Positions 1 to 24,161 of a stretch of DNA of 38,925 nt are shown here, one piece after another. The DNA is from Clostridiisalibacter paucivorans DSM 22131 (lineage in GTDB: Bacteria; Bacillota; Clostridia; Tissierellales; Clostridiisalibacteraceae). The notes beneath the pieces were generated by a model. That model ran no database searches. It was not told the DNA's origin and saw only the letters and a program-made list of their open reading frames with translations. The stretch covers positions 55,310-94,234 of the forward strand of contig NZ_JHVL01000008.1 of the NCBI RefSeq assembly GCF_000620125.1, given 5' to 3'. Made by a program: the position numbers and the translations under genes. Within the stretch, counting starts at the first letter, position 1. Each line of letters opens with the position of its first letter.

Positions 1-66
1 AACTAAGAACTAAGAACTAAGAACTAAGAACTAAGAACTAAGAACTAAGAACTAAGAACTAAGAAC
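1..66. repeat. Heptamer tandem array (AACTAAG)n
   Basis: About nine consecutive copies of a 7-bp unit (AACTAAG, equivalently CTAAGAA) run from the window edge to about base 66, where the array decays into GAACCAAAC. It matches the right arm of the hairpin repeat at 13700-13844. It is therefore probably the right half of another such element whose core and left arm lie upstream of the window. The unit is visible directly; the element assignment is inference. Confidence 0.9.
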
Positions 67-679: not shown

Positions 680-716
680 AGGAGTTAGTAGTTAATAGCT
701 ACTAGCTCCTTTATAT
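678..716 (+). terminator. Hairpin terminator built from heptamer units
   Basis: The arms 678-691 and 699-712 pair over about 14 bp with one G-T, around the loop TTAATAG, starting at the peroxiredoxin stop codon. The stem contains TTAGTAG/CTACTAG, the unit of the dispersed repeat family. The T-run after it is weak (TTATATTTTC). Confidence 0.7.
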
Positions 717-2241: not shown

Positions 2242-3782
2242 ACTTATGATAGCTGAAGATGAGGCAATAGAAAGGAAGGCGCTAAACTTTTTATTGAAAA
2301 AATATTATAAAGATAAAATAGAAGTAATATGTCAATGTCAAAATGGGAGGGAAACTGTTTCTAATGCATTAAGATATAGACCCAATATAATACTTTTGGA
2401 TATAAATATGCCAATAATGGGTGGATTAGAGGCAGCGGAAGAAATAAAAAAACATTTAAAAGATGTAGAAATTATAATATTGACTGCATTTAGCTATTTT
2501 GAATATGCAAAAAAGGCCATAAAGTTAAATGTAAGTGAATACCTATTAAAACCTATATCAAATGATGAATTTTGTAACGCCATAGACAATGTAATAGATA
2601 AGCTTTCTCAGACAAGGGAGATTGTATATAGACAAAGAGAGTTAAAGAATAATTTAGAAAGCATGAAGCCTTTTTTAGAAAAAGAGATAGTTGCTGAGAT
2701 GGTATATGGTTATAAGATAAAAAAATCTAAATTTCAAGAATATAAGAGGATACTAAATATATCCCATGATGAATTTATGTGTATAGTTTTTAGAAGAAGT
2801 GATGATCAGGGATTTAGTGAAAAGCTGGTAAATATGGTGAGAAGTAAATTAAAGTTTATATTTTCAGAGATGGTAGGGTATACATTTCTAAATAATATAG
2901 TCTTTGTGATATTCGGGGCTAAATTAGAGGATAAAAAGACAGGTTTAGAATTTAAGGATTTATTAATGGAAATACAAAAGAGATTGAGTTCCGATGCTCA
3001 AGGGTTATCTATAGGAGTGGGAAAGGTAAAAGATGATATGACCCAGCTATATGATTCCTATAATGAAGCAAGTATTGCTGCAGATAATAAATGTGAGGGT
3101 ATATCTTTTTATACTGAAGAGATTAAAAATATTAATTGTTGTAGTTATCCCTATGATGTAGAGAATAAGATATATGGGAAATTAATAAATGAAGATATAG
3201 AAGGTGCACTCAAGGGATTTGAAGAAATAATGGAATATATATTGAAGAACAAATCTGATATACAGGATATAAAAAAGGCAATTATATATCTTTGTTTGAC
3301 AATAGAAAGAAATATAATATATTTCTTTGAAAATACCTTTGAACCCTTTGATATGGAGGTCGCAGAATCTTGTTTAAAAAATACAAGAGATGTAGATGAA
3401 ATAAGAAACTATATTTAAGAAGCTATTTAAAGAAATTATATATAATATATGTCTCCAAAAAAAGGGTAGGGATAAAAATATAATAGAAGATGTAAAAAGC
3501 TATATACATCATAATTATAATAAAGATTTATCTTTAAACGATTTGGCAGAGTATATACAATTAAGTTCTTATTATTTAAGCAAATTATTTAAGAAAGTTG
3601 AAGGTATAAATTTTAAGGACTATTTAATAAAGGTAAGGATGGAAAAGGCAAAGGATTTACTCCGTAAAGATGGCAAATCTATTAAAGAGACTGCTATCGA
3701 GGTCGGATATGGTGACCCCAATTATTTCAGTCGGGCATTTAAAAAATATGTGGGCATAAATGCCTCAGAATATAAGGGGTAG
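2234..3782 (+). pseudogene. Response regulator YesN type (REC...AraC HTH), frameshifted
   Basis: The first reading frame, 2234-3418, encodes a receiver domain with acidic residues near E8-D9, phospho-acceptor D56 in LLDINMP, and the KPI lysine. A YesN-type middle region follows and ends at TAA 3416-3418. The +1 frame, open from 3405, continues the protein as KKLFKEIIYNIC and then an AraC/XylS double HTH ending at 3782. Deleting one T from the TTT at 3414-3416 rejoins them into a 515-residue protein of normal family length. I chose the GTG at 2234 because GGGGAG lies 9 bases upstream and the product starts MFKLMIAEDE. The alternative ATGs at 2225 and 2228 are too close to that site. If the frameshift is real, the receiver is cut off from its DNA-binding domain. 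A sequencing error is possible. Confidence 0.85.
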
Positions 3783-3887
3783 TTAGTAGTTAGTGGTTAA
3801 TAGTTAGTGGTTAGTAGTTTAATGGTGAAATCCATAGGATTTCTGCCATCAACTACTAACTACTAGCTACGAACTACTAACTTTTTT
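3780..3887 (+). repeat. Heptamer hairpin repeat, copy A
   Basis: A left arm of TTAGTAG/TTAGTGG units leads to a core with GAAATCC-ATA-GGATTTC at about 3827-3843. The right arm is made of CTACTAA-type units and ends at a T-run, 3882-3887. The first bases supply the TAG stop (3780-3782) of the response regulator. The whole element can fold into one long hairpin followed by T6, so it probably terminates transcription from the two-component operon. Confidence 0.88.
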
Positions 3888-3925
3888 ATTGAACAAAAAA
3901 AGTAAGAAGAAGACAACTAAGTACA

Positions 3926-3959
3926 TGGAAAACGATTTTCCTAGGGGTTAGAATATAAT
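3926..3959 (+). promoter_or_regulatory. Candidate operator and -10 of the TRAP/uronate operon
   Basis: A 15-base near-palindrome, GGAAAACGATTTTCC (3927-3941), has 6-bp perfect arms and lies directly upstream of a TATAAT -10 box at 3954-3959. The CG-centred form recalls LacI-family operators but does not fit the cre consensus spacing. The position over the -35 region suggests a repressor or activator site. The regulator is unknown. Confidence 0.55.
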
Positions 3960-3989
3960 TGAATAAAAAATAGGGGAGGAATTAATCAA

Positions 3990-5042
3990 ATGAGTACAAA
4001 AAGAATTTTAGCTATCATGTTAAGTTTAGTTATGGTTATGGCTTTATTTGTAGGATGTGGATCTTCACAAGATTCATCAGAAGATGCATCCAATGAAAAT
4101 GGAGCAGAAGCACCAGCTGGCGATGTAGATGAGCCAATAGTATTGAGATTAGCAGATAACCACAATGAAGGATACCCAACAGTAAAGGGAGATAGAAAAT
4201 TTGCAGAATTAGTTGAAGAGAGAACAGATGGTAAAATTAAAATCGAAGTATATCCTGGTGGGCAATTAGGAGATGAAAAAAGTGTTATAGAACAAGTACA
4301 ATTTGGGGCTATAGACTTTACAAGAACTAGTATATCTCCATTAACTGAATTTAACAAAGATTTAAGTGTACTTATGTTACCTTATCTTTATAGAGACAGA
4401 GATCATATGTTTAAAGTATTAGATGGAGAAGTAGGAGATAAATTCTTAAAGAGTTTAGAAGATAACGATATGTTAGGACTTTGCTGGTTTGATGGAGGTT
4501 CAAGAAATTTCTACAATGCTAAAAAAGAAGTAAAAACTGTAGAAGATATGAAGGGATTAAAGATAAGAGTTCAACAAAGTAAGCTTATGATGGACTTAGT
4601 AACAGCAGTTGGAGCTTCACCTACACCAATGACATTTGGAGAAGTATACAGTGCATTACAAACAGGAGTAATAGACGGTGCTGAAAATAACTGGCCAAGT
4701 TACCTTTCAACAAGTCATTATGAGGTAGCTAAATATTTCACTGTAGATGAGCATACAAGAGTACCTGAGATGATCTTAGTAAGTAAAATGACTTATGATA
4801 AAATACCTGATGAGTACAAACCTATAATAGAAGAAGCTGCAAAAGAAGCTGCTCTATATCAAAGAGAAGAGTGGGAAAAGGCTGCAAAAGAAGCTGAAGA
4901 AAAAGTTGTAGAAAATGGAAACGTAATAACTAGAATAGATGAAGAAGCTAGAAAAGGATTCCAAGATGCAGTTAAACCATTATATGAAGAGTTTGGAGCA
5001 GGACAAGAAGATATAATAGAAAAGATATTGAATACCAAGTAG
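3990..5042 (+). CDS. dctP: TRAP transporter solute-binding lipoprotein (DctP family)
   Basis: The 350-residue protein has a lipoprotein signal ending at FVGC (C23) and a low-complexity acidic linker to about residue 50, followed by a DctP fold. It delivers an organic acid to the DctQ-DctM permease. Recognisable family segments are YPGGQLGDE, GLKIRVQQS and GVIDGAENNW. The arginine in the IRV segment normally binds the substrate carboxylate. AGGGGAGGA precedes the ATG. The downstream genes are uronate isomerase- and tagaturonate reductase-like, which suggests a hexuronate ligand, but the sequence alone cannot name it. Confidence 0.93.
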   Translation: MSTKRILAIMLSLVMVMALFVGCGSSQDSSEDASNENGAEAPAGDVDEPIVLRLADNHNEGYPTVKGDRKFAELVEERTDGKIKIEVYPGGQLGDEKSVIEQVQFGAIDFTRTSISPLTEFNKDLSVLMLPYLYRDRDHMFKVLDGEVGDKFLKSLEDNDMLGLCWFDGGSRNFYNAKKEVKTVEDMKGLKIRVQQSKLMMDLVTAVGASPTPMTFGEVYSALQTGVIDGAENNWPSYLSTSHYEVAKYFTVDEHTRVPEMILVSKMTYDKIPDEYKPIIEEAAKEAALYQREEWEKAAKEAEEKVVENGNVITRIDEEARKGFQDAVKPLYEEFGAGQEDIIEKILNTK

Positions 5043-5051
5043 ACTTTTAAC

Positions 5052-5083
5052 AGAAGGTGAAGATTTCAATCTTCACCTTCTTT
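5052..5083 (+). terminator. Intercistronic hairpin between dctP and dctQ
   Basis: A 12-13 bp near-perfect stem (AGAAGGTGAAGAT against its complement) with a 4-base loop is followed only by TTT before the dctQ ribosome binding site. It looks like a weak terminator or 3'-end stabiliser that lets the binding protein be made in excess over the permease. Confidence 0.7.
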
Positions 5084-5102
5084 AAAAAGGAGGAGTAGCA
5101 AT

Positions 5103-5606
5103 ATGAAGTTTTTAAAGAAGATTATAGATTTTATAGATATGGTACTAGAGAATCTTGCTATGCTCTTTTTAGTGCTAATGACATTGATAATAACATATCA
5201 GGTAGCCACAAGATATTTTCTTAATAAAACTCCCTATTGGTCAGAGGAGATTTCATTGCTTTTAATGGTTTGGTTTGGATTTATGGGCATAGCTATTGGA
5301 GTGAAGAAGGGCATTCATATAAGCATTCAGTTTTTTGCAGAGAGGCTCCCTGCATCAATGCAGAAAGTAGTAATAAAGATTGATGAGCTTTTAATTGGTG
5401 TATTTGGGGTTTTACTATTTGTCCATGGTATTGGACTATGTAAAAAGACAGCTGTTTCTACTATGGCAGCAACTCAATGGCCTACATCTACATTGTATAT
5501 TATGGTACCTGTTTCTGGATTTATGATAGTAGTATATTCTCTATCTAAAATTTTTGGCATAGAGGACGATATAGAAATAGAAAAAAGATGTATAGATGAA
5601 AAATAA
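5103..5606 (+). CDS. dctQ: TRAP transporter small permease (DctQ family)
   Basis: The 167-residue protein has about four predicted membrane segments, at roughly 17-37, 54-72, 95-117 and 133-155. It carries the family motif of an aromatic-rich loop with WSEEISLLLMVW (about 46-57) and the following G-I-G-V-KKG-H stretch. It is the small integral membrane subunit that pairs with DctM in Na+-driven uptake. AAAAGGAGGA precedes the ATG, and dctM follows after 18 bases. Length and position are normal for the family. Confidence 0.92.
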   Translation: MKFLKKIIDFIDMVLENLAMLFLVLMTLIITYQVATRYFLNKTPYWSEEISLLLMVWFGFMGIAIGVKKGIHISIQFFAERLPASMQKVVIKIDELLIGVFGVLLFVHGIGLCKKTAVSTMAATQWPTSTLYIMVPVSGFMIVVYSLSKIFGIEDDIEIEKRCIDEK

Positions 5607-5624
5607 TTGTAGGAGGTGGATGAT

Positions 5625-6920
5625 ATGGTAAATACAGCAGCAATAGTTTTACTTATTGGATCACTATTTTTATTGCTTATTTTAAGGGTTCCAATAGCTT
5701 TTTCACTGGGACTTTCCACATTGGCTACTGCAATATATTTGGAAATACCTCCTATGGTGGTGACACAGCAAATGGTTAAAGGAGTACATTCCTTTTCTCT
5801 TATGGCAATTCCATTCTTTATATTGGCAGGAGAGATAATGGGAGAAGGAGGTATATCAAAACGTCTTATTGCATTTTCCAATGTAATAGTAGGTAGACTT
5901 AGAGGTGGATTGGCAATGGTTAATATATTGGCCAGTATGTTTTTTGGAGGTATATCAGGTTCGTCAGTTGCTGATACATCATCTATAGGTTCGATAATGA
6001 TACCAATGATGGAAAAACAAGGATATGATAAAGATTATGCTATAAATGTCACAGTAACCTCATCAACACAAGGAGTAATTATACCACCTAGTCACAATGT
6101 AATAATATATTCATTAGCAGCAGGTGGACTTTCGGTTGGAAGACTGTTTTTAGGTGGCTTTTTACCAGGAGCATTGTTGGGAATATCTTTAATGGTACTA
6201 AGTTATATAATCGCAGTAAAGAGAAATTACCCAAAAGGTGAAAAGGTAAGCTTTAAAGAAGGGTTGAAGATTACATGGGAAAGTCTTTTAGGACTTTTTA
6301 CCGCACTTATAATTATAGGCGGAGTTATTTCAGGGATATTTACTGCTACAGAATCTGCAGCAATAGCCACTGTATATGCATTTATAATTACGTTTTTTGT
6401 TTATAAAGAAATACCTTTATCCAGAATGAAATTAATCCTTAGAAATTCGCTTAAGACATTGGCAATGGTTATGGCTGTAATAGCAACATCTAGTGCCTTT
6501 GGATGGATGATGGCATATTTGAAGGTACCTACTTTGGTTACCAGTGGACTGATATCTATCTCTGATAATAAATATGTAATATTACTCATAGTAAATGTGA
6601 TTTTATTATTTTTAGGAATGATAATGGATATGGCACCATTGATATTGATAACTACTCCAATATTGTTACCCGTTGTAACTAGTGTAGGGATGGACCCTAT
6701 ACAATTTGGTATAGTAATGATGCTTAATCTAGGTATTGGACTTATAACTCCACCAGTAGGTTCTACATTGTTTGTGGGATGTTCCATAGGAGGAATGCCC
6801 ATAGAGAAGGTAGCAAAATCTCTAATGCCTTTTTATATAGTAATGTTTATATACTTACTATTATTAACCTTTGTACCTCAACTTACATTATTTATACCTA
6901 ATTTATTGATGGGGTCTTAA
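5625..6920 (+). CDS. dctM: TRAP transporter large permease (DctM family)
   Basis: The 431-residue protein is very hydrophobic, with about 11-12 membrane segments. It forms the transport channel of the TRAP system. Family signatures include RVPIAFSLG near the N-terminus, SGSSVADTSSIGSIMIP around residues 110-126 and the LGIGLITPPVG segment near the C-terminus. I chose the ATG at 5625, 8 bases after AGGAGG (5611-5616), rather than the GTG at 5616, which lies inside that ribosome binding site. It is followed after 25 bases by the first catabolic gene, so transport and metabolism are on one transcript. Confidence 0.94.
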   Translation: MVNTAAIVLLIGSLFLLLILRVPIAFSLGLSTLATAIYLEIPPMVVTQQMVKGVHSFSLMAIPFFILAGEIMGEGGISKRLIAFSNVIVGRLRGGLAMVNILASMFFGGISGSSVADTSSIGSIMIPMMEKQGYDKDYAINVTVTSSTQGVIIPPSHNVIIYSLAAGGLSVGRLFLGGFLPGALLGISLMVLSYIIAVKRNYPKGEKVSFKEGLKITWESLLGLFTALIIIGGVISGIFTATESAAIATVYAFIITFFVYKEIPLSRMKLILRNSLKTLAMVMAVIATSSAFGWMMAYLKVPTLVTSGLISISDNKYVILLIVNVILLFLGMIMDMAPLILITTPILLPVVTSVGMDPIQFGIVMMLNLGIGLITPPVGSTLFVGCSIGGMPIEKVAKSLMPFYIVMFIYLLLLTFVPQLTLFIPNLLMGS

Positions 6921-6945
6921 ATACTCGTTGGAAAGGGATGCTAAT

Positions 6946-7974
6946 ATGAGTAAAGAAACTGGTTTTGGTATTATAGGATGTGGAAGTGTATCAAGGTTAC
7001 ATGCCAAGGCTATATCGGAGATACCAGGAGCTAAATTAGTAGCATTGTGTAATAGAACGAGAGAAAAGGCAGAAAAGTTGGCACAAGAGTTTCAAGTAGA
7101 TGCCATATATACAGACTATAGAGAGCTTATAGATAATGAAGATTTGGACGTATTAAATATACTGACTCCCAGTGGAACCCATGGTGAAATAGCTTGCTAT
7201 GCTGCTAAAAAAGGAAAAAATGTAATAGTAGAAAAGCCCATGGAGATTGATTTGGATAGGGCAAAAGAGATGGTTGATACATTTGATAAATATAATAGAA
7301 AATTATCAGTTATATACCAACATAGAATGGATCCCGACACTATAAAATTAAAGAAAATTATAGCAGAAGGCGGATTTGGAAGACTAGTATTATCCGATGC
7401 ACATATAAAGTGGTATAGAACTCAATCATATTATGATAGTGGCAAATGGCGTGGAACATGGGCCCTTGATGGTGGAGGAGTATTAATGAATCAGGGCATT
7501 CATACCATAGATTTGATGATTCATATTATGGGAGAAGTTGAAAGTGTATTTGCCTATTGTGATACACTGGGACATAAAAATGTTGAGGTTGAAGATATGG
7601 CTACTGCTGTATTGAGATTTAAAAGTGGGGCCTACGGTACCATTGTAGGTTCCACTTGCACATACCCTGGACTGCCTGCAAGGTTAGAAATTCATGGAAT
7701 AAAGGGCTCTGCTAGATTAGAAGGAGATAAACTTATATATTTAAATACCTCAGATGAAACAATTGAGTTAGAAAATGATATAATTAAAAATACTGGGACA
7801 TCTAATCCCATGGCTATAGACTATATGTCCCACAAAGCTCAGATAGAAGATATGGTTAACAGCATAAAAGAAGACAAAAGACCTCTAATAGATGGTGTAG
7901 AGGGTTTGAAGGCACTCAAATTAATATTAGCCATATATGAATCTGCAAGGAAGGGCGTAGAGGTGAAACTATAA
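6946..7974 (+). CDS. Gfo/Idh/MocA-family NAD(P)-dependent oxidoreductase
   Basis: The 342-residue protein has an N-terminal Rossmann fold with GIIGCGSVSRLH (about residues 7-18) and the family's EKPMEIDL motif near residue 96, which contributes the conserved lysine. The C-terminal alpha/beta domain contains NQGIHTIDLM, whose histidine is the usual catalytic base. Members oxidise or reduce sugars, sugar acids and inositols, so the substrate cannot be read from sequence. Its place between the TRAP permease and uronate enzymes suggests a sugar acid. I chose the ATG at 6946 after GAAAGGGA over a TTG at 6928 that has no ribosome binding site. Confidence 0.88.
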   Translation: MSKETGFGIIGCGSVSRLHAKAISEIPGAKLVALCNRTREKAEKLAQEFQVDAIYTDYRELIDNEDLDVLNILTPSGTHGEIACYAAKKGKNVIVEKPMEIDLDRAKEMVDTFDKYNRKLSVIYQHRMDPDTIKLKKIIAEGGFGRLVLSDAHIKWYRTQSYYDSGKWRGTWALDGGGVLMNQGIHTIDLMIHIMGEVESVFAYCDTLGHKNVEVEDMATAVLRFKSGAYGTIVGSTCTYPGLPARLEIHGIKGSARLEGDKLIYLNTSDETIELENDIIKNTGTSNPMAIDYMSHKAQIEDMVNSIKEDKRPLIDGVEGLKALKLILAIYESARKGVEVKL

Positions 7975-7995
7975 TAATTATAGGAGGTATTTTAA

Positions 7996-9453
7996 ATGAA
8001 ATTAAGTAAAGAACTTTGCAAGAATTATAAAAAATATCCAGAAAAAATTCTTCAATTTGGAGAAGGAAACTTTATAAGGTCCTTTGTGGATTGGATGGTA
8101 GATGATATGAATTGCAAAGGATTATTTAATGGAAGTGCAGTAGTAATTCAACCCAGAAAAAGAGACAGAGTTACAGTGCTTAACAATCAAGATGGATTAT
8201 TTACATTATATCTAAATGGCATTAAAGATGGAGAAGCCAAAAGTACACATAAGATAATAAATGCCATAAGTAGAGGTATAAATACCTATACAGATTATGA
8301 TGAATTTTTAAAAGTTGCTGAGAATCCAGAGTTGAGAATAATTACATCTAATACCACAGAGGCAGGAATTGCATTTGACGAAGACGATGAACTTACAGAT
8401 AGACCTCAGACTAGCTTTCCAGGAAAGTTAACTGCATTTTTATATCATAGATATAAATCTTTTAACGGAGATAATAATAAAGGGTTTATAATATTACCCT
8501 GTGAATTAATAGATAAGAATGGACAGAAACTTAAAGAAATAATTTTAAAGTATGCAGAAAAATGGCATCTAGATAAAGGATTTATAGACTGGATAAACAA
8601 TGCCAATACCTTTTGCAATACCCTTGTAGATAGGATAGTTCCCGGTTATCCTAAAGATAAGATAGATAAAATAACAGAGGAATTGGGCTACGAAGATGCT
8701 TTAGTAGCAGAGGGAGAAGTATTCCATTTGTGGGTAATAGAAGGTCCTAAGTGGATAAAAGATGAGTTTCCTGTGGATAAAGCAGGATTAAATGTGCTAG
8801 TTGTGGATGATATGACTCCATATAGAACTAGAAAGGTAAGGATATTAAATGGAGCTCATACAAGCATGGTGCCAGTAGGTTATTTATATGGTTTAGAGAC
8901 AGTAAAAGAAGCAGTGGAAGATGAAGTGATCGGTAAATTTGTAAAGAAAGCTATATTTGAAGATATAATTCCTACCCTAGATTTATCGGAGAAAGAGCTT
9001 ACTGACTTTGCAAATGATGTATTAGATAGATTTAAAAACCCATATATAAAACATAGACTTATAAGTATCTCTTTAAATTCCATGTCTAAATATAAAACTA
9101 GAGTATTGCCCTCTGTATTCAAATATAAAGAAATAAAAGGAGCATTACCCAATAGATTAGTATTTTCATTGGCGGCCCTTATAAGGTTTTATAAGGGAGA
9201 AATAAATGGTGAGCATATAGATTTATCAGACAATGAAGACATATTACAATTGTACAAAGGTCTTTGGGGAAATTATGATGGAACTAAAGAATATTTAGAA
9301 AAGATTGTAGAAGAAGTATTAGCATATGAAAAAAATTGGGATATGGACTTAAATAATGTAGATGGGTTAAAAGAAATGGTTTTGGAATACCTAGTAGATA
9401 TAGAGAAAAAAGGGATTACTGAAGCTGTAAAGGAGTTAATGAGTAACAGCTAA
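7996..9453 (+). CDS. uxaB: Tagaturonate reductase-like (mannitol dehydrogenase family, UxaB-type)
   Basis: The 485-residue protein belongs to the long-chain mannitol dehydrogenase family. The N-terminal NAD-binding segment reads [15 protein letters not shown], and the C-terminal domain has the catalytic K-x4-N-x2-H motif in [12 protein letters not shown]. The QFGEGNF/RSFVDWM form is the one seen in altronate oxidoreductases, which interconvert tagaturonate and altronate with NADH. GGAGG lies 10 bases before the ATG. The next gene is uronate isomerase-like, giving two consecutive steps of hexuronate breakdown. Fructuronate reductase activity cannot be excluded. Confidence 0.82.
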
Positions 9454-9470
9454 AAAGGAGGTAGAAAATC

Positions 9471-10715: not shown

Positions 10716-10733
10716 GCCCCTACTTTAAATTAA

Positions 10734-10792
10734 TATATATAAAAACATTTCCAGGGTATACTACTCTGGAAATGTTTTTATATATACTTTTT
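10734..10792 (+). terminator. Strong rho-independent terminator of the TRAP/uronate operon
   Basis: A 21-bp perfect stem (10734-10754 with 10766-10786) surrounds an 11-base loop, GGTATACTACT. The stem ends in an A-run/T-run, and CTTTTT follows. It closes the operon starting at 3990. Confidence 0.93.
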
Positions 10793-10843
10793 GGGTATAA
10801 ATATATTTAATTCATTATTTCAATATAAAAGGTAGGGGATATA

Positions 10844-11464
10844 ATGGAATTAGAAAATATAAATAAAATATTGAATAAAAGAAAAGAATGTCCTATGGGG
10901 ATTAATGAAAGCTTTTCTGTGCTATTGCCATTGATAGATATAGATGGAGAATTACATCTAATATATGAAATAAGAGCAGAACATCTGGAGACACAGCCAG
11001 GAGAGATATCCTTTCCCGGGGGAATGGTGGAATGGGGAGAAACCCATGAAGAAGCAGCCGTAAGGGAAACGGAAGAAGAACTTAATATATCTAGAAAAAA
11101 TATAGAGATTATAGGTAAAACAGATTTTCTTATAACACCATTTAATATAGCAATATATCCCTTTGTGGGAGTTATAAAAAATGTAGATTTAAAGGATATA
11201 AGATTTAGTAAATGTGAAGTTGATGATATATTTACTGTACCATTAAAATTTTTCTTGTCAGAAGGACCATTGGAGCATTTTCTCTATATGGAACCTAAAC
11301 CTGAAAGAGAATTTCCCTACCATATGGTTCAACGAGGTAAGGCATATGATTGGAGAATAGGCAAGTATCCTGTATTATTTTATGAATATAATAACTATAT
11401 AATATGGGGAATAACTGCCAGAATAACTAGAAATTTTATAGATATATTGAAATATAGCTTTTAG
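10844..11464 (+). CDS. Nudix hydrolase, CoA pyrophosphatase-like
   Basis: The 206-residue protein has a Nudix box from G60 (GMVEWGETHEEAAV-RET-EEE) with metal-binding E75, E78 and E79. It is preceded by the QPGEISFPGG segment characteristic of the CoA diphosphatase subgroup (NudL/YeaB). It probably cleaves CoA or its derivatives, or another nucleoside diphosphate compound. AGGGGAT precedes the ATG. The gene stands alone between a terminator and a repeat. Its TAG stop lies within the first heptamer of the downstream repeat, so the exact C-terminus may have been set by the insertion of that element. Confidence 0.85.
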   Translation: MELENINKILNKRKECPMGINESFSVLLPLIDIDGELHLIYEIRAEHLETQPGEISFPGGMVEWGETHEEAAVRETEEELNISRKNIEIIGKTDFLITPFNIAIYPFVGVIKNVDLKDIRFSKCEVDDIFTVPLKFFLSEGPLEHFLYMEPKPEREFPYHMVQRGKAYDWRIGKYPVLFYEYNNYIIWGITARITRNFIDILKYSF

Positions 11465-11532
11465 TTCTTAGTTTTTAGTTCTTGGTTCTTAGGACAAACT
11501 ACGGACTACGAGCTACCAACTATGGACTACCA
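11461..11532. repeat. Heptamer repeat, copy F (coreless, imperfect)
   Basis: TTAGTTC/TTGGTTC units on the left face ACTACGG/ACTACGA/ACTACC units on the right across a short GACA spacer, with no GAAATCC core. The right arm is open in the frame of the following dehydrogenase, which could mislead start-site prediction. The true ATG is at 11548. Confidence 0.75.
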
Positions 11533-11547
11533 AAAGGAGGATGTAAA

Positions 11548-12516: not shown

Positions 12517-12518
12517 TC

Positions 12519-12555
12519 AAAAGTAGCTTGGAAATAAATTCCAAGCTACTTTTTT
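12519..12555 (+). terminator. Rho-independent terminator
   Basis: A 15-bp perfect stem, AAAAGTAGCTTGGAA (12519-12533) with 12539-12553, has loop ATAAA and a T-run. Its A-rich left flank means it could also end the convergent CAP-protein transcript. Confidence 0.95.
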
Positions 12556-12560
12556 ATTAA

Positions 12561-13478
12561 CTATGGTCTAATGAACATTTGTGTCCAATAAGGAGTACCA
12601 TTTTTATTTACAACATACCCTACACCTATCTCTGTAAAGTTAGGAGAAAGGATGTTTTTTCTATGTCCTGCTGAATTCATCCAACCATTCATAACTTGTT
12701 CTGCACTTCTTTGCCCCATAGCTATATTTTCACCAGCATATGAGTAGCTGATACCAAATTGTTTCATCATATCAAAGGGACTACCATAAGTTGGTGATGT
12801 ATGACTGAAGTATCCTTTATCACTCATGTCTTGAGATTTAGTTTGTGCAACTTTTGATAATTCTGCACTATATTTTAATGGTTCAAGACCAGCCTTGCTT
12901 CTTTCAGCATTAACAAGATTTACTATTTGCATTTGTATAGAATTTGAAGTGGTGATTACGTTGTTGTTTGTTGAAGGTTTTTCACTGTTTTCGATTGTTA
13001 CGTTATTGTTTGTTGAAGGTTTTTCACTGTTTTCAATTGTTACGTTATTGTTTGTTGAAGGTTTTTCACTGTTTTCAATTACTACGTCATTGTTTGTTGA
13101 AGTTTTTTTATTGTTTTCAATTATTATGTTATTGTTTGTTGAGGGCTTGTCCTTAGGTCTTGTTGTAGAATTATTGTTTTCTACATCTTTTTTATAGAAT
13201 CTAGAAAAGTCATTGTCTGCAAATTTTCTTATTGCATTCCAATTGATACTAAGATCCCTATTAGTTGAGGTCTTATATCTGGTACCTTGGTTTTGGATTT
13301 CAGTGCAATCATCTAGATTTTGGCCTTTCATACTTAATACAATCCTAGATACATCTTTGTTTATTTGCCCTCTATTTATGTCATAAGTACAATCACTACC
13401 AAATGCTAAACTTGAATTTAAAACCATTAATCCAGTCAATATAGACGGGACTAAAAGCTTAAACTTCTTTCTTTTCAT
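12561..13478 (-). CDS. Secreted CAP/SCP-domain protein (YkwD-like) with Asn-rich repeats
   Basis: The 305-residue protein starts with a signal peptide (KKFKLLVPSILTGLMVL, cleavage near SLAFG). A linker region to about residue 110 leads into five 14-residue units of the KPSTNNNVTIENSE type (111-179) and a C-terminal CAP domain (about 184-303). The domain retains GYFSHTSP, GENIAMG and the GHRKNILSP motif, so the conserved His and Glu residues are present. CAP proteins are extracellular or spore/cell-wall associated in Firmicutes, and the biochemical role is not settled. AAAGGAGGAAG precedes the start. The repeats look like a length-variable stalk. Confidence 0.88.
   Translation of the reverse strand: MKRKKFKLLVPSILTGLMVLNSSLAFGSDCTYDINRGQINKDVSRIVLSMKGQNLDDCTEIQNQGTRYKTSTNRDLSINWNAIRKFADNDFSRFYKKDVENNNSTTRPKDKPSTNNNIIIENNKKTSTNNDVVIENSEKPSTNNNVTIENSEKPSTNNNVTIENSEKPSTNNNVITTSNSIQMQIVNLVNAERSKAGLEPLKYSAELSKVAQTKSQDMSDKGYFSHTSPTYGSPFDMMKQFGISYSYAGENIAMGQRSAEQVMNGWMNSAGHRKNILSPNFTEIGVGYVVNKNGTPYWTQMFIRP
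12942..13148 (-). repeat. 42-bp coding minisatellite in the CAP-protein gene
   Basis: Four full 42-bp units and one partial unit encode KPSTNNN(V/I)-type 14-mers. Two adjacent units are identical at the protein level (KPSTNNNVTIENSE), while the outer ones have diverged. This suggests recent in-frame duplication in the middle of the array. Confidence 0.9.
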
Positions 13479-13610
13479 AAAATACTTCCTCCTTTATTTT
13501 TGAAAAAATTTTGTCAAGTAGAATCAGTGAAAAACTTATGTAGATTATAACACTGGTATTATAATAAAAAAAGCTGTAATGTTTACATAACTAGGGATAA
13601 ATATGTATAA

Positions 13611-13690
13611 TAGTTAGTAGTTAGTTGTAAGTGGTTAGTTGTTAATATACAGGGAAATTATTCTGTATTGGAAAGCAGTTACTAATTAAT
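13611..13690. repeat. Degenerate heptamer element, copy B1
   Basis: TTAGTAG/TTAGTTG-like units (13611-13645) are followed by a different short palindrome, ATACAG...CTGTAT, and a brief ACTAATTA right end. It looks like a decayed member of the same family. It lies upstream of the CAP gene (transcribed away) within the 415-base gap before the GAF gene. Confidence 0.6.
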
Positions 13691-13699
13691 GTAGAATAT

Positions 13700-13844
13700 A
13701 GTTAGTAGTTGGTAGTTGGTAGTTGGTAGCTAGTAGTTGGTAGTTAGTAGTTCAATGATGAAATCCTGCGGATTTCTTCCACCAACTAAGAACTAAGAAC
13801 TAAGAACTAAGAACTAAGAACTAAGAACTAAGAGCTAAGAACTA
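13700..13844. repeat. Heptamer hairpin repeat, copy B2 (longest)
   Basis: The left arm has about seven TTAGTAG/TTGGTAG units (13700-13752). The core is GATGAAATCC-TGC-GGATTTC (about 13756-13777). The right arm has about eight CTAAGAA units to 13844. The arms differ in unit type (TTAGTAG against the complement TTCTTAG), so they pair only partly. They seem to have expanded independently by unit duplication. Confidence 0.92.
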
Positions 13845-13896
13845 TCTGTATTAATATTATTTTAGAAAATAAATAGTAAAGGAGAGGGTCTATATT

Positions 13897-14400
13897 ATTA
13901 CAATTACTAAATTAAAAGAAATTGATACATCTAATAAAGAAAAGTTTTATGGATACTTAAATAAGAGATTGTCTGGAGTTATATCTGAAGAGTCTGATTG
14001 GATTGCAAGTACATCTAATGCTGCAAGTTTATTGGGGCTTCTAATGGATGATATAAATTGGGCAGGGTTTTATTTTCACAGAAAAAAAGAGTTGATTTTA
14101 GGACCATTTCAAGGCCGACCTGCATGTACCCGTATACCAATAGGACAAGGAGTTTGTGGAACAGCAGCAGAAACCTTAGAAACTCAAGTTGTACCTGATG
14201 TAAATAAATTTCCAGGACATATAGCATGTGATATAGAATCACAATCAGAGATAGTTATTCCAATAGTAAATGATGAAAAGTTGATAGGGGTGCTAGATAT
14301 AGACAGTCCCACTAAAAATAGATTTGATCAACAAGATAAAAAGTACTTAGAAGAATTTGTAGAAATACTTAATAAATATATAAAATGGGAAGTAATTTAG
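13897..14400 (+). CDS. GAF-domain free methionine-(R)-sulfoxide reductase (fRMsr/YtsP-like)
   Basis: The 167-residue protein is a single GAF domain with the three fRMsr cysteines at the expected spacing: C77 (GRPAC), C87 (GQGVC) and C111 (GHIAC). DDINWAGFY, GPFQG and GVLDIDSP are family signatures. The enzyme reduces free Met-R-sulfoxide using thioredoxin. No ATG or GTG exists in a sensible position. Homology requires the TKLKEIDTSNKEKFY N-terminus, so the start is probably ATT at 13897 (or 13894), 6-9 bases after GGAGAGG (13881-13887). Using the TTG at 13969 would remove 24 conserved residues. The ATT may be a rare start codon or a mutated ATG. Confidence 0.85.
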   Translation: MTITKLKEIDTSNKEKFYGYLNKRLSGVISEESDWIASTSNAASLLGLLMDDINWAGFYFHRKKELILGPFQGRPACTRIPIGQGVCGTAAETLETQVVPDVNKFPGHIACDIESQSEIVIPIVNDEKLIGVLDIDSPTKNRFDQQDKKYLEEFVEILNKYIKWEVI

Positions 14401-14415
14401 GGGTAGTAAAAAGAA

Positions 14416-14483
14416 AGTTAGTAGTTAAATGATGAAGTCCAAAGGATTTCCACCATAAACTACTAACTATTATCCACTAACTA
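14416..14483. repeat. Heptamer hairpin repeat, copy C
   Basis: A short left arm (AGTTAGTAG), the core GATGAAGTCC-AAA-GGATTTC and a right arm of CTACTAA/CCACTAA units lie between the convergent GAF gene and tyrS. CTA at 14481-14483 is the tyrS stop (TAG on the minus strand). On the minus strand the hairpin is followed by TTTCTTTTT, so it probably terminates tyrS. Confidence 0.85.
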
Positions 14484-15710
14484 AATAATATTCACTTGAT
14501 GATATACTTTTTTACCTTTTCTTATAATAATTTTCCCATCTTTAAAATCATCTAATGTGATATTTAAATCTATATCTTCTACTCTATTGTCATTTACATA
14601 GATACCACCTTGTTTAACTAATCTTCTACCTTCACTTTTTGAAGATGTAAGTTCTAATTCATTAAGCAAAGTAAGCACATCCATGCCTTCATTAAATTTA
14701 GATTTTTCTATATCGGTAGATGGCATAGAATCAGTGGCTTTACCTTGACCAAATAGAGACTTAGCTGTATCCTGTGCTTTTTTAGCTTCCTCTTCTCCAT
14801 GGACTATTTTAGTAAATTCATATGCGAGTATTTCTTTAGCTTTATTGATTTCTGCTCCTTCTAAAGAAGATAATCTTTTAATTTCATCCATAGGTAAAAA
14901 TGTCAATAGACATAGACAATTTTCCACATCTGCATCATCTATATTTCTCAAATATTGATACATTCTATATGGTGATGCCTGTTCAGGATCTATCCAAAGG
15001 GCACCAGCTTCAGTTTTACCCATTTTTTTGCCTTCACTAGTTGTAAGAAGTTTAAATGTTAGACCGTATGCAGGTTTTCCTTCCATTCTTCTTATTAAGT
15101 CAGCCCCTGAAATAATATTTGACCATTGATCATTGCCACCTAATTGTAGCTGACAACCATATCTTCTATATAATTCTAAGAAGTCATAGGATTGCATAAT
15201 CATGTAGTTGAATTCTAAGAATGAAAGTCCTTTTTCCATTCTAGATTTAAAACATTCTGCAGTAAGCATTCTATTTACAGAGAAATTCTTTCCAATGTCC
15301 CTTAAAAATTCAATATAGTTTAGATTCCTAAGCCAATCAGCGTTGTTTACTGATAATCCGTTTTCTCCATCTATAACCAAATACTTAGATAATTGTTCAG
15401 TTATTCTATTTGCATTGTGGTTTATTTGGTCAACAGTGAGCATCTTTCTAATATCACTTCTGCCAGAGGGATCTCCTACCATTGCAGTACCGCCTCCAAC
15501 TAAAGCTATAGGTCTATGTCCAGCCCTTTGAAGATGCATCATAACCATGATCTGAACAAAATGTCCTAAATGCAAACTATCTCCTGTAGGGTCAAATCCT
15601 ACATAAAATGTTACTGATTCTTTACCTAATAATTCTCTTATTTCATCTTCATGGGTTGCCTGCTCAATAAAGCCCCTTTCTTTTAACACATCATAAACAT
15701 TTCTTTCCAT
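14481..15710 (-). CDS. tyrS: Tyrosyl-tRNA synthetase
   Basis: The 409-residue class I synthetase has the HIGH-type motif HLGH in a Rossmann fold (near residue 50, after [10 protein letters not shown]) and the KMSKS-type loop KKMGKTEAG. Its C-terminal S4 RNA-binding domain includes [15 protein letters not shown]. It charges tRNA-Tyr. I chose the start at 15710 because GGAGGT lies 8 bases upstream and the product begins MERNVYDVL. An upstream ATG extends into the leader without support. Expression is controlled by the T-box leader upstream. The stop codon lies in a repeat arm. Confidence 0.97.
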
Positions 15711-15745
15711 ACTAAATACCTCCATTTTTATGATTTTATTATGCA

Positions 15746-15986
15746 AATAAAAAAGGGCCTTCCAATCCTGTTAAGGACGAGAAAACCCGCGGTACCACCT
15801 TATTTACATCTAAGAGATGCCTCTTTGGTCGGATTAACGAACCGACATATCGCAATGTTCTACCATTGAAACTCCAGAATGTAATTTCAATTTTTATGCA
15901 ACATAGACTTTGCACCAACCAGCCTACTCTCTGATTATAGACATAAAAATCTACTAAATCCTTCATAGTCTTTGAATATGTATTTA
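15746..15986 (-). promoter_or_regulatory. T-box riboswitch leader of tyrS
   Basis: On the minus strand the canonical T-box sequence AAGGTGGTACCGCG lies at 15801-15788. It is followed by a terminator hairpin (CCTT...AAGGCCC) ending in TTTTTT at about 15754-15749. AGAGAG and GGTTGGTG match stem I elements. A TAC triplet at 15883-15881 sits in a plausible specifier loop position, matching a tyrosine codon. Uncharged tRNA-Tyr would stabilise the antiterminator and switch on tyrS. Confidence 0.93.
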
Positions 15987-15992
15987 TAGTCT

Positions 15993-16021
15993 ATCATATA
16001 GATATATGTTTTTTTTGTCAA
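15993..16021 (-). promoter_or_regulatory. Sigma-A promoter of the tyrS T-box transcript
   Basis: On the minus strand TTGACA (16021-16016) is separated by 17 bases from TATGAT (15998-15993), a near-consensus promoter. Transcription should begin near 15986, just ahead of the T-box leader. Confidence 0.88.
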
Positions 16022-16034
16022 GGGGGTAAAATGA

Positions 16035-16133
16035 ATTAGTTAGTAGTTAAAATAATAATAGCTAGTAGTTAGCAATTGATGGATAAATCCTATGGATTTT
16101 ATCATTAAACTACGAACTACGGACTACCAACTA
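16035..16133. repeat. Heptamer hairpin repeat, copy D
   Basis: The left arm has TTAGTAG and CTAGTAG units, and the core is GATAAATCC-TAT-GGATTTTATC. The right arm is of ACTACGA/ACTACGG/ACTACCA type. More right-arm units (CTACGAACTACCAACTAA) appear at about 16171-16187, after an unrelated 28-base palindrome. This suggests the palindrome interrupts, or was inserted into, the arm. Confidence 0.82.
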
Positions 16134-16145
16134 TATCCAACAAAA

Positions 16146-16173
16146 TAGAGGTAGACATATATGTCTACCTCTA
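16146..16173 (-). terminator. Perfect 28-base palindrome, terminator of the superoxide reductase gene
   Basis: The sequence is its own reverse complement over 28 bases (TAGAGGTAGACATA plus its complement). On the minus strand it is followed directly by TTTTG and lies 18 bases after the superoxide reductase stop. It acts most simply as a rho-independent terminator. Confidence 0.8.
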
Positions 16174-16190
16174 CGAACTACCAACTAATT

Positions 16191-16562
16191 TTACTCAACT
16201 GTAATTTCTTTTTCGCTTTCCCAAAGTCCATGTATATTACAGTAGCTAACTACATGAATTGTACCTGATTTACTAAGTTTTACACAAGTCTTAACTTCAG
16301 GATCATTTAATATATCTCCTTCACCATGGGCAGTGAAATTATAAGTACCTATTTCAACAGGGAATTTTGCTCCCTCTGGATGGAAAAATACCTTGAACCA
16401 TGATATATGATGCTCAATAGTATTTGGATGTTTAATTTCATCTCCTATTGAAACTCCTAATTCAAAAGCCTCTCCTGCCTTTACCTTTTCAGGGCTATGT
16501 ATAACAGGAACGTGTTTTTCACCTTTCCAATCACCAGTTTGTAATAATTTACCTAAACTCAT
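16191..16562 (-). CDS. Class II superoxide reductase (neelaredoxin/desulfoferrodoxin family)
   Basis: The 123-residue protein is the single-iron form without the N-terminal desulforedoxin domain. The Fe(His4Cys) ligands are visible: a His in EKHVPV, two in the EHHISWF segment, and Cys plus His in YCNIHG. It reduces superoxide to peroxide in the cytoplasm, a typical anaerobe oxygen defence. The start at 16562 follows AAGGAGGAGATATTA. Upstream in-frame codons would add a hydrophobic extension absent from the family. A peroxiredoxin at the start of the window could remove the peroxide made. Confidence 0.94.
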   Translation of the reverse strand: MSLGKLLQTGDWKGEKHVPVIHSPEKVKAGEAFELGVSIGDEIKHPNTIEHHISWFKVFFHPEGAKFPVEIGTYNFTAHGEGDILNDPEVKTCVKLSKSGTIHVVSYCNIHGLWESEKEITVE

Positions 16563-16683
16563 TAATATCTCCTCCTTGACCTTCATTATTATCATCTCTA
16601 AAAATATATATACCCACAATGATAAAAATAACACAGATTTTTTAAAAAGAAAATAAAACCAAGGGCAAAGAACTAAGAACTAC

Positions 16684-16703
16684 ACTTTTTACTGGTAAAA
16701 AGT
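16684..16703. promoter_or_regulatory. 20-base palindrome upstream of the RNA methyltransferase gene
   Basis: ACTTTTTAC-TG-GTAAAAAGT is a 9-bp perfect inverted repeat with a 2-base centre. It lies in the divergent region between the superoxide reductase and methyltransferase genes, next to a short heptamer remnant (AAGAACTAAGAACTAC, 16668-16683). The tiny loop favours an operator over an RNA hairpin. The binding protein is unknown. Confidence 0.45.
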
Positions 16704-16753
16704 ATACTGTTTTGCTAAAATAATAATGAATCTAATATGAATGGAGAGATTGC

Positions 16754-17890
16754 ATGTTGAAACTTAAACTGATAGCAACTTCTACCTTTGGTCTTGAAGC
16801 TGTAGTAAAAAGAGAGATACAAGATTTGGGATATGAAGATATAGAAGTAGAGAATGGGAAAATCACATATACTGGAGATGAAAGGGCGATAGCCAAATCT
16901 AATTTATGGCTTAGAAGTGCTGATAGGGTATTATTGAAAATGGGAGAATTTAAGGCTAGATCCTTTGAAGAACTATTTGAAAAGACCAAATCCTTGCCAT
17001 GGGACGAATTTATTCCAGAAGATGGAGAGTTCACTGTCACAGGTAAGTCTGTGAAATCACAATTACATAGTGTACCTGATTGTCAAGCTATAGTAAAGAA
17101 GGCAGTAGTGGAAAAAATGAAAAGTAGGTACAATAGAGATTGGTTTGAAGAAACGGGACCTAAATTTACTATACAAGTAGCACTATTGAAGGATACAGCA
17201 ACTCTAACTATAGATACCAGTGGAGTAGGGCTACATAAGAGGGGATATAGAGAAGAGGCTGTAGAAGCTCCATTGAAGGAGACATTGGCAGCAGCCATGG
17301 TTAATTTGAGTTTTTGGGATAAAAATAGAATCTTTTTAGATCCATTTTGTGGTTCTGGAACTATACCTATAGAGGCGGCTATGATAGGCAGAAATATAGC
17401 GCCAGGATTAAATCGTTCCTTTGCCTCTGAACAATGGTCAATTATAGGAAAGGATATATGGAAAGAAGAAAGAGTAAATGCCCTTAAAGCTATAGATCAA
17501 GATGTGGAACTAAAGATATATGCTCAAGATATGGATCCTGATGCTATTGAAATAGCTAAAGAAAACGCATATAAAGCTGGAGTAGATGATTGTATAAGAT
17601 TTCAATTAAAAAGAATGGAGAACATAAATACAAAAGATGAATATGGTGTAATAATATGTAACCCTCCATATGGAGAAAGGCTGGGAAGGAAAAAACAAGT
17701 GGAAAAACTATACAAAACTATGGGAAAGAAGTTTGAAAAACTATCTACTTGGTCTAAATATATTATTACATCTAATGAAAATTTTGAAAAACTATACGGA
17801 AAAAAGGCCAGCAAGAAGCGTAAATTATATAATGGCAGGATAAAAGTAGACTATTATCAGTACTATGGTCCTAAACCACCAAAAAAATAG
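16754..17890 (+). CDS. THUMP-domain rRNA N2-guanine methyltransferase (RlmL/YpsC-like)
   Basis: The 378-residue protein has an N-terminal ferredoxin-like/THUMP region (about 1-160) for RNA binding and a C-terminal class I SAM-dependent methyltransferase domain. The SAM loop is DPFCGSGTIPIEAA, and the catalytic motif is NPPYGERLG, the NPPY form used for exocyclic amino groups. Length and domain order match the Firmicute YpsC family, likely acting on 23S rRNA. The start ATG at 16754 has GGAGAG 5 bases upstream. The C-terminus is rich in lysine and ends KPPKK, consistent with RNA contact. Confidence 0.93.
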   Translation: MLKLKLIATSTFGLEAVVKREIQDLGYEDIEVENGKITYTGDERAIAKSNLWLRSADRVLLKMGEFKARSFEELFEKTKSLPWDEFIPEDGEFTVTGKSVKSQLHSVPDCQAIVKKAVVEKMKSRYNRDWFEETGPKFTIQVALLKDTATLTIDTSGVGLHKRGYREEAVEAPLKETLAAAMVNLSFWDKNRIFLDPFCGSGTIPIEAAMIGRNIAPGLNRSFASEQWSIIGKDIWKEERVNALKAIDQDVELKIYAQDMDPDAIEIAKENAYKAGVDDCIRFQLKRMENINTKDEYGVIICNPPYGERLGRKKQVEKLYKTMGKKFEKLSTWSKYIITSNENFEKLYGKKASKKRKLYNGRIKVDYYQYYGPKPPKK

Positions 17891-17981
17891 GTGAAAAAAG
17901 TAGTAAATTGTGTTATCATTGTATGAGTCAAAAAAATAACATAAAAGGGGGGATTAACTGACTAATTATGTCAGTGATTTC

Positions 17982-19031
17982 ATGAAAAAAAGAAAAATTA
18001 TATCATTATTATTAATTATTGTACTTTCTATAGGAATACTTTCAGCATGTGGACCTAAAGAACCCAAGGAGATTTTAAAGAAAGCAACTGAAGAATCTGC
18101 TGATATGAAGACAGGTACTCAAAGTTTTGAAATGGGTATAAAATTAGATATACCAATGGAAAATGAAGATCCATTTGCGTCTATGATATTAAATGCCATA
18201 AACAATGGAAAAATATCAGGAACATTTGCATCAGATACTAATGAAATGAAGACATTTGGAGATTTTACATTGGATTTAGATGGCATATCTTATAAATGTG
18301 AATTATACTTTAGTCCTGAAAAATCTGCTATTAAGGTACCTATGGTAGATAAGTATATACTATTAGACGATGAAGAAATGAAAAACATGTCTGATGAGGA
18401 CCAAGTTAAAGAGATGCAGAAACTGTCCATAGATATGGTAAATTCAATCCTTGATGAGTTAGAAGATGATAGCCTTTCAAAGAAAGAGGATGTTGTACTT
18501 AATACACCAGAGGGTGATGTTAAGGTTACAGAAATAACAATGGATATATCTGATGAAAAAATCAAGACTATAATAAAGGATATAGTTCCAACATTATTTG
18601 AAAATCCTGCTATGAGAGAGATGATGGTACCTAGTATAAAACAACAATTAGAATTAGAAGGCAAAGAAGCAACAGATGAGGCTGTGCAGGCAGAATTAGA
18701 CAATAGCTTGAAGGAATTTAATGAAGGATTTACTGAAATAGAAGATATACTTACATTTAATGAGGTAAAAATAGTTTACGGAGTAGATGATGATTATAAT
18801 ATAAGATCATCTAAGATTAAATTAGATTATAAAATGCAAGATAAGGAAACAGGCGAAGAATTGGGAATAGTTATAGATGCTGAAGGCAAGGTATGGGGAA
18901 TAAATGAACCTATAGAAATTGAAGAGCCAGAGCTTACAGAAGAAAACAGTATAAAAATGGAAGAACTAATGAACCAATTTATGATGCCTATGCCTGAACC
19001 AGAACTAGAACAATTACCAGAAGAACAATAA
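17982..19031 (+). CDS. Putative lipoprotein, LppX/DUF6612-like
   Basis: The 349-residue protein has a clear lipoprotein signal (KKRKIISLLLIIVLSIGIL then SAC, C23). A long acidic extracytoplasmic domain with alternating beta-strand pattern follows (TSGTFASD-, DFTLDLDGISY-like segments). Such proteins are often annotated as DUF6612 or LppX-like; I cannot assign a function. The nearest ribosome binding site (AAAAGGGGGGA, ending 17953) is 28 bases from the ATG. A five-codon ORF (MSVIS, ATG 17968) lies between and overlaps the lipoprotein start as ATGA, so translation may be coupled. A CTG at 17958 is another possible start. Confidence 0.75.
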   Translation: MKKRKIISLLLIIVLSIGILSACGPKEPKEILKKATEESADMKTGTQSFEMGIKLDIPMENEDPFASMILNAINNGKISGTFASDTNEMKTFGDFTLDLDGISYKCELYFSPEKSAIKVPMVDKYILLDDEEMKNMSDEDQVKEMQKLSIDMVNSILDELEDDSLSKKEDVVLNTPEGDVKVTEITMDISDEKIKTIIKDIVPTLFENPAMREMMVPSIKQQLELEGKEATDEAVQAELDNSLKEFNEGFTEIEDILTFNEVKIVYGVDDDYNIRSSKIKLDYKMQDKETGEELGIVIDAEGKVWGINEPIEIEEPELTEENSIKMEELMNQFMMPMPEPELEQLPEEQ

Positions 19032-19032
19032 T

Positions 19033-19133
19033 AGTTAGTAGTTAATAGTCGGTAGTTAGTAGTTGATGGTTGAAATCTTATAGATTTCCTTGTTAAACTA
19101 CTAGCTACTAACCGTTAACTACTAATTTTTTTA
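19033..19133 (+). repeat. Heptamer hairpin repeat, copy E
   Basis: TTAGTAG-type units on the left, core GAAATCT-TAT-AGATTTC, and CTACTAG/CTACTAA-type units on the right form an imperfect hairpin of about 45 bp. It is followed by TTTTTTTA. It starts one base after the lipoprotein stop and lies between convergent genes, so it probably ends both transcripts. The core has the compensated change CC/GG to CT/AG, which keeps pairing. Confidence 0.88.
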
Positions 19134-24091: not shown

Positions 24092-24161
24092 AAAAATTAA
24101 TAATACAGAGTTTGCTTACTAGAGTTTATAGACTATGAACTAAAAAACTGGAGTGATAATA

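Follow-up and report, generated by a model that had tools for sequence, protein, structure and literature searches.

A dispersed family of hairpin elements with arms of 7-bp units in the genome of Clostridiisalibacter paucivorans

A stretch of 38,925 nucleotides of Clostridiisalibacter paucivorans DSM 22131 (hereafter the window; G000:C8:55310-94234, in a 3.25-Mb draft genome of 85 contigs) carries hairpins that recur in nearly the same form and are bordered on both sides by tandem 7-bp units, which raises the question of what kind of DNA they are. A sequence-only reading of the window had listed five full elements and all of them were found at the coordinates it gave, namely 3780..3887, 13700..13844 and 14416..14483 on the plus strand, and 16035..16133 and 19033..19133 with their canonical strand on the minus strand (each is named below by its first position). 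In this genome, genome-wide dispersal of the family, a fixed polarity of its units, conserved pairing of its core and a placement after stop codons were observed. Orthologous presence and absence of elements, and changes of unit number in exact multiples of 7, were observed only for related elements of ruminant-gut Clostridia. With moderate confidence, we read the family as small non-coding and non-autonomous inverted-repeat elements, similar to miniature inverted-repeat transposable elements (MITEs) or to foldback elements.

The usual element has a hairpin core, GAAATCC-N3-GGATTTC-YACCATC, flanked by two head-to-head arms of 7-bp units. From the outside inwards, the left end AGTTAGTAG is followed by the 7-bp units, by TTTAATGAT and by the stem GAAATCC-N3-GGATTTC; after the stem come YACCATCAA, units of the opposite polarity and the right end CTACTAACT. 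The profile thus has the inverted ends (AGTTAGTAG / CTACTAACT) typical of MITEs, and its inverted arms hold variable numbers of short tandem repeats, as those of foldback-type elements do. The flanking DNA is A-rich before the element and T-rich after it. Four units was the commonest arm length in 56 elements (27 left and 28 right arms), a set biased towards typical copies because 24 of the 56 came from the best model hits or from earlier loci. At 38 sites of the sampled DNA (438,925 bases, made up of the window and a further 400 kb of the genome, not randomly chosen), 17 left and 12 right arms had four units, and both arms did so at five sites. AGTTAGT was the most frequent outermost unit; among arms having three to five units, it closed 14 of the 24 on the left and 11 of the 21 on the right. 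The common units in the array scan were TTAGTAG, TTCTTAG, TTCGTAG, TTGGTAG and similar ones, without any run of three G. Array pairs separated by no more than 120 nt were mostly forward-reverse (28), the other orientations being reverse-forward (1), reverse-reverse (7) and forward-forward (6). In addition, a second, long-armed type, of which the copy at 13700 is an example, carries TTCGTAG/TTGGTAG units in one arm and TTCTTAG units in the other. A longer end motif, AAAGGTATA, had been spotted by eye on some flanks and was dropped, only 2 of its 30 occurrences lying within 80 nt of an array.

The five elements had been taken for members of a dispersed family with more copies elsewhere in the genome, and this was borne out. 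The exact core gave 41 matches, corresponding to 39 places as two were counted on both strands, and the reversed pattern gave none. Three consecutive TTAGTAG-type heptads with up to three mismatches matched 306 times, overlapping registers included, and never when the pattern was reversed. About 123 distinct places were recognised by a covariance model of 45 copies (15 of 60 core sites, weak or reversed matches, were excluded from the alignment); these are the 150 rows listed, all that were scored among 4070 candidates, less 27 opposite-strand duplicates. In the sampled DNA, a scan for heptad arrays found 103, versus 12 in the reversed sequence, and a model using sequence alone found 45 distinct places, some of them short partial matches (85 rows, 40 of which duplicated a place). 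Finally, autocorrelation over 400 kb of this genome gave 4.8 segments per 100 kb at lag 7, 4.0 at lag 14 and 2.8 at lag 21, and 0–0.2 at the other lags.

The core is kept paired across these copies. Earlier pair counts had used copies with at least 6 of the 7 stem pairs, so they were repeated on members chosen by sequence alone. In this set the seven stem pairs were formed in 92.7% of 286 cells, versus 87.2% after shuffling (maximum 90.2%), and 12 cells in four of the seven pairs showed changes on both sides, versus a shuffled mean of 2.5 and a maximum of 9. The core covariation on which the sequence-only reading had staked its proposal is consequently present, and the compensated CT/AG change that it described in the core of the copy at 19033 is genuine. 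All five full elements of the window folded better than the mean of their dinucleotide shuffles on both strands (z from −2.4 to −9.1); equally good folds were given by 2 of 200 shuffles for the plus strand of 13700, by 6 of 200 for the plus strand of 16035 and by none for the rest.

As regards their location, the elements closely follow stop codons on the 3' side and seldom fall between divergent genes. Only 15 of the 103 arrays lay mostly inside open reading frames (ORFs), though 86–89% of the DNA was called coding by a simple caller of ORFs of at least 80 amino acids. The arrays formed 61 clusters, 46 of which fell within spacers of at least 60 bp and 15 outside such spacers; of the former, 10 were found among 20 convergent spacers, 34 among 154 tandem ones and 2 among 31 divergent ones. 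For the minus-strand tandem cases (31), medians read from the list were 21 nt for the distance to the upstream stop codon and 139 nt for that to the following start codon. Relative to the upstream gene, the canonical strand ran antisense in 20 of the 27 tandem cases, and convergent cases were divided 5 versus 4.

This placement directly after stop codons, together with the covariation of the core, would also be expected if the elements were working RNA at gene ends, chiefly intrinsic terminators or stabilisers of the 3' untranslated region, kept by selection on the transcript. Such an explanation gains from the strand bias, because the reverse complement of the canonical strand was the better RNA fold in 35 of 45 copies. 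Its advantage comes mainly from a single position, A-C on the canonical strand and G-U on the reverse complement, and in those 20 of 27 tandem cases the reverse complement is the sense strand. It gains as well from T-runs that end some copies, for instance those at 3780 and 19033. However, a run of at least four T followed the arm on 12 of the 45 strands on which a gene reads into the element and on 4 of the 29 others, and T counts did not differ between sense and other strands (p 0.45). A T-run directly after the stem on the sense strand, as intrinsic terminators have, was not found overall, and single copies may qualify. A scan for consensus terminators flagged none of the five full elements (9 sites, versus 8.1 in shuffles), no Rfam family matched them at the gathering threshold, and the pairing of the arms is without covariation, as detailed below. 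A terminator role is possible for single copies but not general, and we consider unlikely that the family as a whole is an RNA element of this kind.

Comparison with other genomes was made at several levels. The heptad pattern was found in 11 of the 249 genomes of the order, C. paucivorans included, and matches were many in three genomes of three different families (306 in this one, 109 in G011 and 39 in G037). When 391 genomes of the class were searched with the element, scoring the best 12 candidates per genome, matches were obtained in this genome and in G535 (one place, on both strands). In each of the nine sequence sets analysed by autocorrelation, unrelated loci included, no lag exceeded lag 7, although some of these sets were small and rested on one to three segments. 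At least 122 core matches were found in other genomes. Eight of those listed had 7-periodic arrays within 70 nt, lags 5, 6, 8, 9 and 10 giving 0, and the remaining 114 listed mostly look unrelated or coding. The eight comprise one Scytonema record and seven metagenome-assembled genomes of ruminant-gut Clostridia (six RUG and one from goat ileum), two of these seven matches (L118 and L123) being one locus in close relatives. The 20-nt core pattern was also seen without heptads, in Eisenbergiella (L042, L052 and L066) as pairs about 90 bp apart, and in Methanococci (L021, L022 and L029) as copies following AGCTCCTATCA.

The related elements of ruminant-gut Clostridia have a long form, in which an arm is followed by hairpin 1, a variable spacer, hairpin 2 ending in GGATTTG-CACC, and the other arm. 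Hairpin 2 was present in six of eight genomes and had 75 matches in the draft genome G621. One copy of C. paucivorans (L139) also has two hairpins, so that the short form may represent hairpins 1 and 2 merged. In 30 ruminant-gut elements, which are the loci returned out of 101 hairpin-match rows, the two arms of an element matched each other at 0.913, versus 0.861 in within-genome shuffles (5 of 5000 as high).

Turnover of these elements was followed at five of the eight hairpin sites listed for G628, which were compared with its close relative G622. One site was empty in G622, with 247 nt in G628 and 4 nt in G622 between flanks 95–96% identical, and another one held a different heptad element at the orthologous G622 site. 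The three remaining sites shared the element and differed by 28 nt, by 7 nt, and by a 44-nt spacer plus unit letters, respectively; in the last of them, units read GAGAATT in one genome and GGGAATT in the other on both arms, and the hairpins were alike. Since a site can hold such a related element in one species and lack it in another, these elements look like tiny pieces of mobile DNA without genes of their own. Two further observations were made at these loci. The element and its near flanks were identical between L339 and L351, bar a 28-nt unit difference, in genomes about 92% identical around them, perhaps by recent exchange, and at L369 (G622:C18) the right arm of a heptad element contains a longer insert whose inverted ends are GAGTGTGTTTCTAAA, giving nested repeats.

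A second pair of genomes, G007 and G023, was 93–94% identical over 165.7 kb aligned, and 21 of their 92 gaps of at least 5 nt fell in 7-periodic DNA, versus 3 for lag 6, 2 for lag 11 and 0 for lags 5, 8, 9 and 10. Heptad arrays are thus hotspots of intergenic change in this pair, whose orthologous spacers often carried quite different heptad mosaics. Several heptad types per spacer were seen at L233–L235 and in the stretches of these two genomes, for example AATTTTC, CTGTCCT and AGTACCC blocks in recurring order.

Between relatives, the number of units shifts by exactly 7 and 28 nt, and lag 7 is prominent even at unrelated loci. Both would be expected if simple heptamer repeats had grown by replication slippage around a core that is an older element or binding site, nothing having moved as a unit. 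Coreless arrays do occur, and slippage has been suggested for heptamers (PMC4692102). Against this, a 39-nt core common to about 123 places needs copying, and slippage alone does not account for the fixed polarity, the modal four units or the empty site in G622. In addition, no excess of identical neighbouring units was found (0.164, versus 0.178 when shuffled within arrays), so that one-unit slippage leaves no visible gradient. Growth by slippage alone appears a rather improbable origin of the family. Still less probable is that the arrays were placed and kept as binding sites of a protein that recognises DNA or RNA, such as a nucleoid or translation factor. That explanation would suit the fixed polarity and the fixed positions within the units (T5 and G7 are set by the search pattern, and A6 was found in 404 of 462), and a regulator has been suggested for TAACTGA heptamers (PMC4679880). 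However, unit letters differ between close species at one site, orthologous spacers carry quite different arrays, and no candidate protein was found.

If the elements move, an enzyme should mobilise them, and Y1 transposases (Y1_Tnp) of the RAYT type, which serve repetitive extragenic palindromes (REPs) and REPINs, were considered. Host RAYT mobilisation is suggested by the short imperfect hairpins in high copy between genes, by the two inverted hairpins of the long form and by a 274-amino-acid, RAYT-like Y1_Tnp protein encoded in this genome (L173). Nevertheless, the gene of this protein is flanked by its own GGGGTCAGGC-type repeats instead of heptad elements. The sequence-only reading had linked no transposase to the family, and this holds for the visible flanks of the eight Y1_Tnp loci of the genome, none of which had flanking heptad arrays, although six of the eight run off a contig end. 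At one of these eight loci (L170, about 1360–1405), the end of an IS200-like copy is adjoined by a small inverted repeat, TAGTAGTTAATGAT...ATCATTAACTACTA, which resembles the family but lacks the core stem. Nine Y1_Tnp matches were found in five of the eight ruminant-gut genomes, which are drafts, and none of the nine had heptads or hairpins within the fetched flanks; G621, despite its many copies of hairpin 2, had no Y1_Tnp match. Moreover, the GTAG tag that REPs carry directly at the palindrome is absent, as the neighbours of the stem are AATGAT and YACCATC and GTAG is confined to the arm units. For these reasons the family was not filed with REP/RAYT repeats, and movement by a host RAYT seems to us very unlikely. 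Other searches for a source of mobility in this genome found no parent transposon sharing the element ends within the approximately 13% of the genome examined, and only one forward-reverse array pair 0.3–4 kb apart in the sample that could enclose genes. From their sequences, its two ORFs may encode a GTP-binding protein and a PDZ-type protein.

Several results weigh against small inverted-repeat elements that move as units. Mobility was observed in the relatives and not in the TTAGTAG family itself. The empty site in G622 is the sole one among the five compared and could also be a deletion in that genome. Neither an autonomous copy nor a linked transposase was found, and no target-site duplication was detected in 45 elements by 648 offset tests, the best offset having a z of 3.5 with an identity of 0.35 versus 0.29 (11 of the 56 elements, without clean ends, were left out). 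Nor do the arms behave in this genome as a co-evolving hairpin. Their units pair in 82.4% of 624 cells, versus 81.4% in shuffles, and show 13 double changes, versus 10.0 (maximum 18), which is no covariation. The two arms of one element were no more alike than shuffled ones (0.092 versus 0.077, 227 of 1000 as high), and a retest gave 0.816 versus 0.809, with 1530 of 5000 shuffles as high. The arms pair because both follow one consensus, and the complementary units described on the right of each element are accordingly true of the consensus, but no covariation links the units of one arm to those of the other.

If the copies are nevertheless such non-autonomous elements, they could have spread in this genome as units through a recombinase supplied in trans, with the hairpin or the end repeats as its substrate. 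Because no target duplication was seen, this enzyme perhaps acts on single-stranded DNA. The number of units would change through slippage or unequal recombination, and the location after stop codons may mark the places that tolerate insertions, a minority of the copies acting as terminators.

No prior description of this element was found in the open PMC literature for the terms used, and it was filed as a variant of heptamer inverted repeats with MITE-like traits. The closest likeness in habits is that to the GGGAATC heptamers of Xanthomonas. Four units are commonest in them and convergent pairs occur in 70 and 75 cases; 89–93% are intergenic, they lie 28 nt from the upstream ORF versus 160 nt from the downstream one, few are between divergent ORFs, and they vary strongly between close species (PMC4692102). 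The elements described here resemble them in their intergenic 7-bp arrays, convergent pairs, four units and placement. They differ in lacking G-tracts, whereas the Xanthomonas heptamers were read as G-quadruplexes (PMC4692102). Moreover, no conserved hairpin core is described in the sections consulted of that source. The likeness is one of habits. Heptamer repeats are over-represented in bacterial genomes, for which polymerase slippage or G-quadruplexes have been offered as reasons (PMC4692102). As the same placement habits are found here with units lacking G-tracts, G-quadruplexes cannot be the general reason.

TAACTGA and other heptamers of Beggiatoaceae, cyanobacteria and Bacteroidetes are intergenic direct repeats of patchy distribution with indels in steps of 7 nt (PMC4679880), and the STRR repeats of Calothrix, named in PMC4692102, were grouped with them as a likeness. 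They differ from our elements in being, in the Beggiatoaceae, mostly direct repeats near start codons, and the text consulted describes no covarying core between inverted arms (PMC4679880). REPs, REPINs and GTAG and CGTC palindromes share with the family their being short intergenic hairpins in high copy, and the long form with two inverted hairpins adds to this likeness (PMC3733652). GTAG-type REPs are described as needing the tag and a RAYT (PMC3733652), and CGTC repeats likewise lack a dedicated transposase (PMC3733652, PMC3116915). The family differs from REPs in having no GTAG or CGTC tag at the stem and no RAYT gene found flanked by it, and in its arms of 7-bp units. With the bacterial MITEs Correia, ERIC and RUP it shares a non-coding nature, a length of about 100 bp, inverted ends and a high A+T content (PMC2229807). 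It departs from them in that no target duplication was found and its arms are tandem 7-bp units in variable number. Eukaryotic foldback elements have a middle part between inverted arms, in which short tandem repeats vary in number. They are far longer than the elements described here, and the likeness is one of architecture only.

The copies of the window show most of these forms. The stem hairpins of the five full elements lie at 3827–3843, 13760–13776, 14434–14450, 16084–16100 and 19072–19088. The element at 13700 is long-armed, with TTGGTAG-type units on the left and TTCTTAG-type units on the right, and that at 14416 is short-armed; the T-runs at 3780 and 19033 are both at the right end, and the element at 19033 starts directly after the stop codon of an ORF ending at 19031. 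The partial copies listed by the sequence-only reading were present where it put them, but the one at 1..66 (minus strand, CTAAGAA-type units) does not stand alone. It forms the right arm of a full element with its core at G000:C8:55207-55226, approximately 85–100 nt upstream of the window, and with a gap of ten N in the array. This run of ten N inside a CTAAGAA array (L015, about 70 nt past the core and just before the window) shows that the draft assembly breaks in these arrays. The other partial copies are a short coreless inverted one at 678..712 (plus strand), with two TTAGTAG-type units and CTACTAG within a GGAG...CTCC stem; coreless inverted arrays at 11461..11532 (no strand assigned), TTCTTAG-type on the left and TCCGTAG/TTGGTAG-type (reverse) on the right; coreless forward units at 13611..13690 (plus strand), adjoining the full element at 13700; and two coreless CTAAGAA-type units at 16668..16683 (minus strand). 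Two bits of two units each were missing from that list, one at 16171..16184 (minus strand), made of extra reverse units following a separate hairpin, and one of reverse units at 24133..24146 (minus strand). The latter, which may be due to chance, is the sole heptad bit past 20 kb, and apart from it the statement that none occur from 20 to 38.9 kb was right.

Two features next to elements of the window were also recorded. A response-regulator ORF (2225–3418) stops early, and after a change of frame an AraC-type C-terminal part continues to about 3782, at the very start of the element at 3780; the region 2225–3782 is either a broken gene or an assembly error. In addition, a T-box leader (Rfam RF00230, 108.4 bits) was identified at 15770–15975 on the minus strand, upstream of a tyrS-like ORF (14481–15746).

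As for what the family means, the arrays of heptamers may be viewed as the arms of small mobile elements, a testable alternative for such repeats that is tied to a covarying hairpin, to preferred ends and, in relatives, to an empty site. More tentatively, and we regard this as doubtful, heptad-armed hairpins could form one broad and so far unrecognised class of bacterial mobile DNA, with units such as TTAGTAG, GAGAATT, GGAATTA, GTTAGTG, GGTTTTA and perhaps the GGGAATC of Xanthomonas, in which the letters change fast while four things stay constant, namely the 7-bp step, the head-to-head polarity, the preferred number of four units and the position following stop codons. If this were true, the 7-bp step would be set by the enzyme copying or binding the element, which would account for the over-representation of heptamer repeats in bacteria.

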